Source of the DNA: an uncultured Blastococcus sp.
GTDB taxonomy: Bacteria > Actinomycetota > Actinomycetes > Mycobacteriales > Antricoccaceae
DNA: 5,471 nucleotides
Direction of reading: 5' to 3'
Assembly (NCBI GenBank): GCA_946221975.1
Contig: CAMIGT010000127.1
Coordinates: 1-5,471, forward strand
Below are positions 1-5,471 of the stretch, in pieces (the first letter of the stretch is position 1; every line of letters starts with the position of its first letter). The notes below the pieces were generated by a model. That model had not been told where the DNA came from. It saw only the letters and a program-made list of their open reading frames with translations, and did not search any database. Made by a program: the position numbers and the translations under genes.

Positions 1-47
1 GCCCGGCTCGATCACCAGAGGGGCGGGGCTCGCCCGGCTCGATCACC
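1..47. repeat. Partial 31-bp tandem repeat downstream of dnaB
   Basis: The 16-base string GCCCGGCTCGATCACC occurs at 1-16 and again at 32-47, a period of 31 bases. The part between contains a short inverted repeat (GGGCG at 21-25, CGCCC at 31-35). The repeat lies right after the dnaB stop codon and is cut by the window edge, so the copy number is unknown. It could act as a rho-independent-like stem without a T run, or be a member of a dispersed intergenic repeat family. I see the repeat directly; its role is not known. Confidence 0.6.
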
Positions 48-55
48 GAGATGGC

Positions 56-1444
56 CTAGTCGAAGCCGCCGGCGTCGGCGAAGCGGCTGAACTGGCCCTG
101 GAAGATCGTCAGCGCCTCGCCGGTCGGCCCGTTACGATGCTTGGCCACGATCAGGTCGGCCTCACCCTCGCGCCCTGAGTCCTTGTCGTACACCTCGGGC
201 CGGTTGATCAGGATCGCCACGTCGCAGTCCTGCTCGATCGCGCCGGACTCGCGCAGGTCCGACAGCATCGGCTTCTTGTCGGTGCGCGACTCCGGCCCAC
301 GGTTCAGCTGGCTGATCGCGACCACCGGGACCTCAAGCTCCTTGGCGAGCAGCTTCAGCGCGCGGGAGAACTCCGAGACCTCCTGCTGGCGCGACTCGAC
401 TCGCTTACCGGAGGTCATCAGCTGCAGGTAGTCGACCACGATCAGGCTCAGCCCGTGCTGCTGCTTCAGCCGGCGCGCCTTGGCGCGGATCTCCATCATC
501 GTCATGTTGGGCGAGTCGTCGATAAACAGCGGCTTGTCGGCGATATCGCCGCTGATCCGGGTGAGCTTGCTCCACTCGTCGTCGGTGAGCTCGCCCGAGC
601 GGATGCGGTTGAGCTTGATCGCGGCCTCTGCCGAGAACAGCCGCATCGCGAGCTCGGACTTGCTCATCTCGAGCGAGAAGATGACCGAGGCCTTGCCGTG
701 CCGCAGCGAGCACGAGCGTACGAAGTCCAGCGCGAGCGTCGACTTACCCATGGCAGGGCGGGCCGCGACGACGATCATCTGCCCCGGGAAGAGGCCCTGC
801 AGGATCTCGTCGAGGCTGTGGAACCCGGTCGGTACGCCGCCGAGCTGACCGTGCGCGCCGATCATCTCGATCTCGGAGATCACCGGATCCAGCAGGTCAC
901 CGATCACGACATAATCCTCGGCGGTCCGCCGCTCGGTCACGTCGTAGATCGCCGCCTGCGCCCGATCGACCACGTCGTCGACCTCGCCGCCGAGCTCAGC
1001 CTCCCCGGTCGCGGCGCCGTACCCCATCTGCACGATCCGCGTGCCGGCATCGACCAGCCGGCGCAGCACGGCCTTCTCGGCGACGATCTGCGCGTAGTAC
1101 CCGGCGTTGGCCGCGGTCGGCACGAGGTTGATCAGGGTGTGCAGGTACGCCGGACCGCCGATGCGCAGCAGCAGGCCCCGCTTGGTTAGCTCGTCGCCGA
1201 CGGTGAGGATGTCGGCCGGCTCCCCGCGCCCGTACAGGTCGAGGATCGCGTCGTGCACCATCTGGTGCGCCGGACGGTAGTAGTCATCCGGACGCAGCGT
1301 CTCCACGACGTCGGCAATCGCGTCCTTCGACAGCATCATGCCGCCGAGCACCGACTGCTCCGCGGCGACGTCCTGCGGGGGTTGACGGTCGTTGCTGTCC
1401 CAGTCGCGTGGTTCGGCGTACTCCTCGGTGGCGACTGCGCTCAC
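56..1444 (-). CDS. dnaB: Replicative DNA helicase DnaB
   Basis: DnaB is the hexameric 5'-3' helicase that unwinds the replication fork and recruits primase. The protein has 462 residues, normal for an intein-free DnaB. The N-terminal helical domain covers roughly residues 20-125 and the RecA-like motor domain roughly 195-455. Visible motifs are Walker A ARPAMGKST (228-236, Lys234), the SLEMS segment with the likely catalytic glutamate (Glu259), Walker B LIVVDYLQ (334-341), SQLNR (378-382) and KHRNG (435-439) with a likely arginine finger. No intein interrupts these sites, unlike several mycobacterial DnaB proteins. The frame stays open 61 codons upstream. I chose the GTG at 1442-1444 because AGGGGAG lies 7 bases before it and the DnaB-like sequence begins shortly after. 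It is 494 bases from rplI and separated by a terminator, so it probably has its own promoter. Confidence 0.96.
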   Translation of the reverse strand: MSAVATEEYAEPRDWDSNDRQPPQDVAAEQSVLGGMMLSKDAIADVVETLRPDDYYRPAHQMVHDAILDLYGRGEPADILTVGDELTKRGLLLRIGGPAYLHTLINLVPTAANAGYYAQIVAEKAVLRRLVDAGTRIVQMGYGAATGEAELGGEVDDVVDRAQAAIYDVTERRTAEDYVVIGDLLDPVISEIEMIGAHGQLGGVPTGFHSLDEILQGLFPGQMIVVAARPAMGKSTLALDFVRSCSLRHGKASVIFSLEMSKSELAMRLFSAEAAIKLNRIRSGELTDDEWSKLTRISGDIADKPLFIDDSPNMTMMEIRAKARRLKQQHGLSLIVVDYLQLMTSGKRVESRQQEVSEFSRALKLLAKELEVPVVAISQLNRGPESRTDKKPMLSDLRESGAIEQDCDVAILINRPEVYDKDSGREGEADLIVAKHRNGPTGEALTIFQGQFSRFADAGGFD

Positions 1445-1583
1445 GCCCTGGCTCCCCTGTGCTCGACGACCCGATCGATGTGGCTGCTCCCCGACCAGAG
1501 AGATCTCGTTACGCATGCCGCGACTGTGACAGATGGGGCAGACAATGCCGGGAGAACTCGAGCTTGGAAGAGCGCCGCCAGCA

Positions 1584-1613
1584 AAGATAGGCCCCGCCTC
1601 GAGGCATCGACAA
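1584..1613 (-). promoter_or_regulatory. Candidate dnaB promoter
   Basis: On the minus strand TTGTCG (1608-1613) and TATCTT (1584-1589) are 18 bases apart and resemble a housekeeping -35/-10 pair. The spacer contains the perfect palindrome GCCTCGAGGC (1596-1605). The start of transcription would lie near 1577, giving a leader of about 130 bases before dnaB. The nearest DnaA-box-like site begins 20 bases upstream, so DnaA could act on this promoter. This is inferred from sequence match only. Confidence 0.4.
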
Positions 1614-1620
1614 CTCTCGA

Positions 1621-1798
1621 TGTGCACAGACCTGTGGACAACGTGTGTGCGACACGCGACCGCCCTGTGGACGACACGCGGACGGCCTGTGATTGAGCCT
1701 GTGGATGAACCTGTGCATAACGATCAATATGCACTCTGACCTGACATTTTAAAAACCACAGCCTGTGGACGAAAAGTTCTTCCGAGATTTTTTCCACG
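1621..1798. promoter_or_regulatory. DnaA-box cluster with AT-rich stretch (origin-like or DnaA-regulated)
   Basis: Plus-strand 9-mers that are reverse complements of DnaA boxes occur at 1633-1641 (TGTGGACAA, a perfect TTGTCCACA box on minus), 1666-1674 (TGTGGACGA), 1700-1708 (TGTGGATGA), 1712-1720 (TGTGCATAA) and 1764-1772 (TGTGGACGA). Weaker ones are at 1688-1696 (TGTGATTGA) and, in the opposite orientation, 1790-1798 (TTTTCCACG). CCACAG and CTGTGG face each other across one base at 1756-1768. Between the fifth and sixth sites lies AT-rich DNA (15 G/C of 40 bases at 1721-1760), including ATTTTAAAAA at 1746-1755. The start-to-start spacings of 33, 22, 12, 12 and 52 bases are near whole helical turns. 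The region is non-coding and lies between rplI and dnaB. It may be oriC, a DnaA-titrating site, or a DnaA operator for dnaB. Confidence 0.7.
1650..1721 (+). repeat. 22-bp and 12-bp tandem repeats built from DnaA-box units
   Basis: Two 22-base units (1650-1671 and 1672-1693) start with the same CGACACGCG and end in a CTGTG box half; 17 of 22 positions match. They overlap a second array of three 12-base units, CCTGTGATTGAG (1686-1697), CCTGTGGATGAA (1698-1709) and CCTGTGCATAAC (1710-1721). Each 12-base unit carries one box-like site in the same orientation, so the box array seems to have grown by local duplication. Confidence 0.75.
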
Positions 1799-1882: not shown

Positions 1883-1928
1883 AAAAGACGAGTACGCCGC
1901 CACCGGTTGCCGGTGGCGGCGTACTCGT
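1883..1928 (-). terminator. Intrinsic terminator after rplI
   Basis: A perfect 19-bp inverted repeat (1888-1906 and 1910-1928) with a 3-base loop starts 10 bases after the rplI stop. On the minus strand the stem is followed by CTTTTC (AAAA at 1883-1886 on plus). It should end the rpsF-ssb-rpsR-rplI transcript, so dnaB needs its own promoter. Confidence 0.88.
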
Positions 1929-1938
1929 TGGGCGTGTG

Positions 1939-2394
1939 CTAGCTGGCGACAACCTCGATGGTGAAGCGAGCGGTGACATCGTCGTGCAGCTTGACCGAGG
2001 CCTCGTGCTTGCCGGTCGTCTTGACGTGACCGGGCAGCTCGATGCGGCGGCGGTCGAGCTGCGGACCACCGGCGGCCTGGACGGCCTCGACGACGTCGGT
2101 CGCGGTCAGCGAGCCGAAGAGGCGGCCGTCCTCACCCGCGCGTGCGGCGTGGCGCACGGTGAGCGCGGCGAGCTCGGCCGCGATCTGCTTGGCGTGGTCG
2201 AGATCGCGGACGTCACGCACCTCGCGGGCCCGCTTGATCTGCGCGATCTGCTTTTCCGCGCCCTTGGTGGCGACCATCGCGAACCCGCGCGGGATGAGGT
2301 AGTTGCGGGCGTAGCCGCCCTTGACCTCCACCACGTCGCCGGGCGCGCCGAGGCCGCTGACCTCGTTGGTCAGGATGAGCTTCATGTTGGACAT
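1939..2394 (-). CDS. rplI: 50S ribosomal protein L9
   Basis: L9 binds domain V of 23S rRNA at the base of the L1 stalk and helps hold the reading frame. The 151-residue protein has the two-domain L9 layout. The N-terminal rRNA-binding domain carries the family signature GDVVEVKGGYARNYLIPRG (19-37). A long connecting helix follows (about 44-80), and the C-terminal domain has GRLFGSLTATDV (90-101) and LPGHVKTTGKHEASVKLHDD (120-139). Length is usual for actinobacterial L9. Two ATG codons are possible, 2392-2394 and 2383-2385. The second gives the more typical MKLILT start, with GAGGA about 10 bases upstream; the first has AGGGG about 9 bases upstream. I give the longer form. The gene starts 13 bases after the rpsR stop, so the two are very likely co-transcribed, and a strong terminator follows it. 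Confidence 0.96.
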   Translation of the reverse strand: MSNMKLILTNEVSGLGAPGDVVEVKGGYARNYLIPRGFAMVATKGAEKQIAQIKRAREVRDVRDLDHAKQIAAELAALTVRHAARAGEDGRLFGSLTATDVVEAVQAAGGPQLDRRRIELPGHVKTTGKHEASVKLHDDVTARFTIEVVAS

Positions 2395-3944: not shown

Positions 3945-4133
3945 ATGGGACTCGGCGATTTCGCTGATAAGGCCAAGGACGCGCTCGGCGACGAGCAGAA
4001 GTCCGACCAGGTGCTCGACAAGGGCCAGCAGCTCGCGGGCGACCGGTTTGCCGGCCAGGAAGACAAGATCCAGCAGGGCCGCGACGCGCTCGATGACCGC
4101 ATCGGTGACGGCGGCTCGGAGCAGCAGCAGTAA
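3945..4133 (+). CDS. Rv0909-like (MT0933-like antitoxin family) small protein
   Basis: The 62-residue protein is very hydrophilic, with no membrane segment or cysteine. It begins MGLGDFADKAKDAL, has DQVLDKGQQLAGDRF (21-35), GQEDKIQQGRDALDDRIG (37-54) and a glutamine-rich tail. The MG-x(n)-DKAK start, the central LDK-x(n)-A segment and the short length match the family named after M. tuberculosis Rv0909/MT0933, reported as the antitoxin of the Rv0909-Rv0910 pair. No Rv0910-like toxin lies next to it; its neighbours are rpsF (divergent) and a crotonase gene (convergent). An antitoxin role is therefore unproven, and a small stress protein resembling CsbD in size and character is possible. The ATG has AAGGAG 7 bases upstream. 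It is paralogous to the gene at 5181, and the sequence just before the start is also alike (CGACGAGAAGGA versus CGACGAAAGGA). Confidence 0.8.
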   Translation: MGLGDFADKAKDALGDEQKSDQVLDKGQQLAGDRFAGQEDKIQQGRDALDDRIGDGGSEQQQ

Positions 4134-5135: not shown

Positions 5136-5180
5136 AAGAGGCCGCTCGGAAATGACGCGGCGCCGACGAAAGGAATGTCT

Positions 5181-5471
5181 GTGGGACTCGATGACATGCT
5201 CAACAAGGCCAAGCAGAAGCTGACCTCGGACGAACAGGGCACCGACAACATCCTCGACAAGGCCGCGGATTTCGCCAAGTCGAAGTTCTCCGGCCAGGCC
5301 GAGACCATCGACAAGGTGCGCGACGCGATCGATGACAAGATCGGTAGCGGCGACAAGGGCGGCCCGGGAACCACCGCCGACCGGCCCGACAAGCCCGTCG
5401 AGCCCACGGACGCCCGCGCCGAGACCGGCGGCACCGGCCCGCTGGGTTCATCCCCGGACGGAGATCCGCAG
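5181..5471 (+). CDS. Rv0909-like small protein with long Pro/Gly/Asp-rich tail (3' partial)
   Basis: The frame is open from the GTG at 5181 to the window edge, 97 codons with no stop, so the C-terminus is missing. Residues 1-54 align with the 62-residue protein encoded at 3945: MGLDDMLNKAKQKL, then NILDKAADFAKSKFSGQ and IDKVRDAIDDKIGSGD. About 43 residues of low-complexity sequence rich in Gly, Pro, Asp and Thr follow, probably disordered. The paralogue has only a short glutamine-rich end. I chose the GTG because AAAGGA lies 6 bases before it and the protein then starts MGLDD like the paralogue. The ATG at 5175 overlaps that ribosome binding site. Like the first copy it belongs to the MT0933-like antitoxin family. 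A partner toxin could lie beyond the edge; none is visible here. Confidence 0.75.
   Translation, partial: MGLDDMLNKAKQKLTSDEQGTDNILDKAADFAKSKFSGQAETIDKVRDAIDDKIGSGDKGGPGTTADRPDKPVEPTDARAETGGTGPLGSSPDGDPQ

Follow-up and report, generated by a model that had tools for sequence, protein, structure and literature searches.

A helically phased DnaA-box array before dnaB, shared by most sampled relatives, as a predicted DnaA-responsive control region of the helicase promoter

The gap between rplI and dnaB in the stretch of DNA analysed here (5,471 bp, hereafter the window) contains a cluster of DnaA-box-like sequences at positions 1621-1798. Judged from its sequence, this cluster is probably a DnaA-responsive control region of the dnaB promoter, at which binding of DnaA is predicted to raise expression of the replicative helicase. 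An array of evenly spaced DnaA-type sites before dnaB is common to most of the relatives sampled. The original prediction had offered several interpretations of the cluster, and our results bear it out in part: a DnaA operator is supported, whereas a displaced or second replication origin is not.

The window genes that match NCBIfam models are dnaB, rplI, rpsR, ssb and rpsF, which places the cluster between rplI and dnaB, as had been proposed, and leaves neither dnaA nor dnaN in view (Table 1). By eye, the start of dnaB was assigned to the GTG at 1444, which has a GGGGAG-type ribosome site immediately upstream and also has a counterpart in Epidermidibacterium keratini. This species, placed in Sporichthyales by NCBI, is the closest named relative according to the L9 protein (95% identical; another sequence reaches 99%), and its DnaB is 96% identical to that of the window. 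Just past the dnaB stop codon, gcccggctcgatcacc occurs twice (window 1-47). At the other end of the window, two small similar proteins, at 3945-4133 (MGLGDFADKAKDAL...) and about 5175-5471 (VGLDDMLNKAKQKL...), flank an enoyl-CoA-hydratase-like gene (named by resemblance); we presume that these proteins resemble MT0933-type antitoxins.

Table 1. Positions and conservation of the features in and around the rplI-dnaB gap, listed from rplI towards dnaB.
Feature	Position	Strand	Remarks
rplI, ribosomal protein L9, upstream neighbour of dnaB	1939..2394	-	NCBIfam TIGR00158
19-bp perfect hairpin past rplI, then TCTTTTC	1888..1928	-	fold -41.1 kcal/mol; E. keratini has a similar one
Weak box TTTTCCACG, reverse orientation	1790..1798	+	2 mismatches
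DnaA box TCGTCCACA, first of array	1764..1772	-	8/9 identical in E. keratini
Short inverted repeat CCACAGGCTGTGG, first box plus opposing half box	1756..1768	-	called terminator-like by terminator scan
CAGGTCAG element, exactly 20 bp past first box 1764-1772	1736..1743	-	7/8 identical in E. keratini
AT-rich stretch	1721..1760		15 G/C of 40; 25/40 identical to E. keratini
DnaA box TTATGCACA	1712..1720	-	7/9 identical in E. keratini
DnaA box TCATCCACA	1700..1708	-	9/9 identical in E. keratini
DnaA box TCGTCCACA	1666..1674	-	9/9 identical in E. keratini
DnaA box TTGTCCACA, exact consensus	1633..1641	-	9/9 identical in E. keratini
Weak box CTGTGCACA	1621..1629	-	2 mismatches; 9/9 identical in E. 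keratini
Predicted -35 TTGTCG	1608..1613	-	6/6 identical in E. keratini
Predicted -10 TATCTT	1583..1588	-	18-bp spacer; 6/6 identical in E. keratini
dnaB, replicative DNA helicase	56..1444	-	NCBIfam TIGR00665, 511 bits, cut-off 385

A box was defined as a 9-mer with no more than one mismatch to TTRTCCACA, and a weak site as one with two mismatches. By this definition, the window contains five DnaA-box-like 9-mers, all within 1633-1772 and all on the minus strand, which is the dnaB sense strand; the rest of its 5,471 bases holds zero further boxes at this threshold. Sites with two mismatches in the cluster region include those at 1620/1621 and 1790, with more elsewhere in the window. The expected group of at least five good boxes with some weaker ones, mostly in one orientation, was thus recovered. 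An accidental cluster was ruled out by shuffling: the 494-bp gap has 5 boxes, as compared with a mean of 0.15 and a maximum of 2 in 2000 dinucleotide shuffles, and shuffles of the whole window (n=100) gave a mean of 0.73 and a maximum of 3. The spacings between adjacent boxes are 52, 12, 34 and 33 bp, corresponding to 4.8, 1.1, 3.1 and 3.0 turns at 10.9 bp, so that the spacing near whole helical turns that had been remarked on applies to three of the four and recurs as a 10.8-bp period among relatives (see below). The base count of the AT-rich stretch also proved correct.

Beyond the features known from the earlier inspection, the gap contains the hairpin at 1888-1928, a promoter-like pair at 1583-1613 and the conserved CAGGTCAG element at 1736-1743. 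The hairpin is likely the rplI terminator; a simple terminator scan did not call it. If, as is probable, it ends the rplI transcript, dnaB would need its own promoter and form a separate transcription unit. The promoter-like pair lies 19 bp past the box at 1633-1641, with the downstream weak box in between, 12 bp past that exact box and 7 bp ahead of the -35 hexamer. Both hexamers are fully conserved in E. keratini, while the spacer at 1589-1607 matches at 13/19 positions. Taking the predicted transcription start (near 1576) as zero, the weak box is centred near -49 and the exact box near -61. The predicted promoter agrees with only 8/12 consensus bases, and a strict promoter scan of 1400-1960 returned no sigma-70 site. 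An RNA element was also considered for the gap and dropped, as an Rfam search of the window returned no match.

The gap before dnaB was then compared among relatives. A set of 190 loci was assembled, consisting of the 80 best of 562 matches (rich in Amycolatopsis and its kin), a further 30 best matches and 80 chosen by hand; the last two groups constitute a broad sample of 110 loci from 394 genomes searched, in which the 80 were picked by us among the matches listed. The dnaA loci L081-L088 are excluded from the counts, and the near relatives L217-L222 stand outside the 190; of these six, L220 and L222 were dropped for having no dnaB match in the stretch used. The results showed that at least two boxes lie within 600 bp before dnaB in 172/190 loci and at least three in 135/190, although some loci repeat a genome (the pairs L003/L090, L049/L101 and L056/L107 each stem from one genome, and L070/L102 look identical). 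This is the conservation that was to be looked for in the gap of related genomes. For the three groups separately, at least two boxes were found in 78/80, 25/30 and 69/80 loci, where shuffles gave means of 0.14-0.17 per locus; 18 of the 190 loci have fewer than two boxes near dnaB, including 4 with none. Orientation is biased, with 610 boxes along dnaB and 87 opposite. The distances between adjacent boxes in the broad sample are best described by a period of 10.8 bp (R 0.81, n=158; 99.9% null quantile 0.28), and collapsing repeated spacing patterns gave R 0.82 (n=126; null maximum of 2000 draws 0.33). Between the window and E. keratini, the segment 1608-1720 is identical at 104/113 positions, as compared with 106/166 for the rplI side of the gap.

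Those relatives in which the two genes have separated are informative about which gene the array belongs to. In 31 loci rplI lies at least 2 kb from dnaB, and all 31 keep at least two boxes within 600 bp before dnaB, with a mean of 4.8 and a minimum of 2; the 600 bp after rplI in the same loci hold a mean of 0.03 boxes and a maximum of 1. Since the boxes stay at dnaB and not at rplI, the array belongs with dnaB. In L002, L005, L025, L054 and further loci of Amycolatopsis or Prauserella type, other DNA separates the two genes, rplI being found about 3.8-4.7 kb from dnaB, with the array still at dnaB. A promoter-like pattern (TTGnnn, 16-19 bp, TAnnnT), searched up to 65 bp past the last box, was found in 66/80 loci of the Amycolatopsis-rich set and in 43/106 box-bearing loci of the broad sample, whereas shuffles would give 0.5 and 1.0 and control segments gave 6/558 and 3/736, respectively; the other 63/106 box-bearing loci of the broad sample are without the pattern in the place tested. 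Its distance from the last box is stepped, being 4-8, 15-20 or 28-31 bp.

These two properties bear on the main rival to a DnaA-responsive promoter, which is titration: the cluster would chiefly be a datA-like site that titrates or inactivates DnaA and thereby limits initiation, its location before dnaB mattering little. We consider this unlikely as the main function, since neither the persistence of the array at dnaB when rplI is displaced nor its stepping to a promoter-like pattern is needed by titration alone. What speaks for it is that five boxes exceed the need of one promoter and that they are several boxes outside oriC, the sister genome E. keratini having its dnaA elsewhere; moreover, a review reports, in the portion accessible, that initiation at the wrong time is repressed by clusters outside oriC in both B. 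subtilis and S. coelicolor (PMC5742627). Strict paired boxes, searched in 16 genomes chosen for long contigs, are rare as well (0 to 16 per genome), and those within 160 kb of dnaB make up 5/5 in G384 and, if the contig is circular, 3/3 in G106. Against this, such matches are scattered in G160 (16) and G130 (5), and 3/16 genomes have none. The paired-box pattern was abandoned as an indicator of the cluster at dnaB, because among the 16 genomes the dnaB gap itself matched only in G384. Titration may possibly be a second role of the array.

If the dnaB promoter responds to DnaA through this region, the following mechanism can be envisaged. DnaA would bind the helically phased row of boxes adjoining the -35 element, the bound protein would raise dnaB expression, and the supply of helicase would thereby be coupled to the level of the initiator; a putative partner protein would occupy the CAGGTCAG element, which lies 20 bp from the first box. 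Binding of DnaA at such a place has been published for mycobacteria, according to the available text of one study (PMC7738170): M. tuberculosis DnaA at 150 nM enriched five regions in vitro, including Rv0057 upstream of dnaB and rpmH-dnaA, and ChIP-seq in M. smegmatis placed DnaA on the homologues of the same five regions. Together with the tracking of dnaB by the array and the frequent occurrence of the promoter-like pattern at fixed steps past the boxes, this binding supports the proposal of a DnaA operator that ties helicase supply to initiation.

The sign of the effect is a further question. Activation is favoured by the position of the boxes near -49 and -61, that is, upstream of the predicted core promoter and not over it, which suggests the geometry of an activator. 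It also rests on one DnaA mutant in a distant relative, M. tuberculosis, in which reduced binding upstream of dnaB goes along with under-expression of dnaB, as stated in the accessible part of the report (PMC7738170). Both observations run counter to the converse possibility that DnaA represses dnaB and so curbs the supply of helicase at high levels of free DnaA; under repression, weaker binding in that mutant would give higher, not lower, expression. We therefore hold a repressing role to be improbable, even though DnaA is able to act as an activator or a repressor (PMC8203912, as far as its text is available) and in some relatives 4-8 bp separate a box from the -35 element.

The cluster is probably not a second origin, and a displaced or second origin with its unwinding element at 1721-1760 seems very unlikely to us, mainly by analogy with the sister species E. 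keratini, judged from the dnaA position and the skew in its genome. There, dnaA (1,916,006-1,917,475) and rplI (2,142,080) are about 225 kb apart. The GC skew, calculated from 34 sampled 20-kb pieces and noisy as a trend, with single pieces deviating in sign (e.g. 2.18 Mb, -0.009; 0.20 Mb, +0.004), runs from -0.029 at 1.80 Mb through +0.008 at 1.90 Mb to +0.028 at 2.00 Mb, which puts the main negative-to-positive switch at dnaA and not at rplI-dnaB; near dnaB the sampled values drop from +0.026 at 2.08 Mb to -0.009 at 2.18 Mb, opposite to the direction of an origin. Boxes also occur in the dnaA flanks of 8/8 other relatives. It is true that the box cluster contains an AT-rich stretch, and that in three near relatives the AT fraction around CAGGTCA is 0.42-0.53 as compared with 0.36-0.38 in the surrounding 620 bp. 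However, a separate AT peak apart from the boxes is absent from the broad sample and modest (0.48, at -120) in the Amycolatopsis-rich set, and 1721-1760 is identical to E. keratini at only 25/40 positions, as against the 104/113 of 1608-1720. Two more compact box groups lie within 80 kb of the E. keratini dnaA, at 1,841,975-1,842,050 and 1,877,509-1,877,539 of G413, and one of these groups includes two oppositely oriented boxes that abut.

The second conserved component of the predicted control region is the CAGGTCAG element. When the 8-mers in the gaps of the 110 relatives of the broad sample were ranked, DnaA-box words came first, and the top word unrelated to the box was CAGGTCAG, present in 35 loci versus 2.25 expected. 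In the same sample, exact CAGGTCA was found 20 bp past a box core 30 times and at most 6 times at each other spacing listed; allowing one mismatch per side, 39 loci have it at 20 bp, and no other spacing in the range of 8-44 bp exceeds 14 loci. In the Amycolatopsis-rich set of 80 loci, CAGGTCA is inverted in 32 loci versus direct in 11, at other spacings, which weakens the reading of a single geometry. The combined pattern TCCMCA-N19-GCAGGTCA is present in 123/394 genomes of the class, as compared with about 39 genomes for a reversed control pattern. At 26 places it occurs upstream of dnaB at a distance of up to about 500 bp; many of the remaining places resemble coding sequence. Another 20 places were picked by eye as box-like: 15 are next to a ygjP-like peptidase gene, 4 belong to dnaB loci and 1 was left unassigned.

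CAGGTCA also appears near dnaA, within 500 bp before the dnaA match in 8/14 loci, where sampled DNA of E. keratini gives a background of about 0.14 per 500 bp. In L082, L083, L211 and L215 it stands 14 bp past an opposite GTGGAC-type core, about 190-230 bp before the dnaA match, a geometry that differs from the 20-bp one at dnaB. Another DnaA-box place is found beside the ygjP-like metallopeptidase gene in L261-L271, L273, L275, L277 and L278, close to ThiF-like and ABC1-kinase-like genes in several loci (names by resemblance). The E. keratini cluster at this place (L257:4205-4366) has four boxes in about 160 bp, and CAGGTCA is present there, not 20 bp from a box. A broader proposal, which we put forward as a doubtful extrapolation only, is that DnaA of Actinomycetes might act before dnaB, before dnaA and beside the ygjP-like gene together with an undescribed partner whose recognition site would be CAGGTCAG, set at a constant distance from a box, with the rplI-dnaB array as the actinobacterial counterpart of datA/DARS placed in the helicase promoter.

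Two other kinds of motif before dnaB were considered. GACAC is the WhiA motif; WhiA as its reader was dropped, as plain GACAC is without clear enrichment (273 versus 198 and 197 versus 203 expected). The longer GACACGCCGAA is enriched upstream of dnaB, in 60/80 and 23/110 loci versus 1.8 and 1.4 expected, and repeats about 330-450 bp before dnaB in relatives; the window has only GACACGC, twice (1651-1657 and 1673-1679), on the plus strand and in the opposite orientation. A LexA-type box (TCGAACNNNNGTTCGA, no more than two mismatches) was found before dnaB in 55/80 and 29/110 relatives, versus 1.8 and 3.4 expected, mostly about 75-300 bp before the gene (e.g. L164, L188 and L153). M. tuberculosis dnaB is discussed alongside LexA-controlled promoters in the available part of one paper (PMC8151990). 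In the window no LexA-type box was found at this threshold, and LexA was therefore dropped as part of the mechanism here.

Overall, a known mycobacterial kind of site can now be traced through most of a class-wide sample, and the design of the array is rigid: its boxes are in helical phase, the promoter-like pattern follows at set distances, and CAGGTCAG is conserved. If DnaA sets the supply of DnaB, the helicase would increase along with the initiator, in bacteria some of which, the mycobacteria, lack any identified homologue of the helicase loaders known so far, according to the text available to us (PMC5720831). The CAGGTCAG element could serve as a specific bait with which to isolate a regulator of replication that is still missing. 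A literature search, made largely in papers outside subscription, returned no description of the class-wide array, of its phasing to the promoter or of CAGGTCAG, and the element at dnaB is possibly new.

In E. coli, datA and DARS are groups of DnaA boxes that work with the site of a second protein, IHF or Fis; where these have IHF or Fis sites, the window array has CAGGTCAG, and it lies before dnaB. A DnaA-bound control region of dnaB is already known in mycobacteria: the site upstream of dnaB in M. tuberculosis and M. smegmatis (the Rv0057 region) belongs to the same class of bacteria, occupies the same place and is bound by DnaA in vitro and in vivo (PMC7738170); the accessible text describes no box array, phasing or promoter for it, and it is likened to the window array here by its description. 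In Caulobacter crescentus, a member of another phylum, dnaB belongs to the DnaA-dependent regulon and has predicted boxes upstream (Hottes 2005, as cited in the available part of PMC8203912). The clusters of S. coelicolor (Smulczyk-Krawczyszyn 2006) and B. subtilis (Okumura 2012), as cited in the accessible portion of PMC5742627, likewise lie outside oriC, but differ from the array before dnaB in that they are known for limiting initiation.
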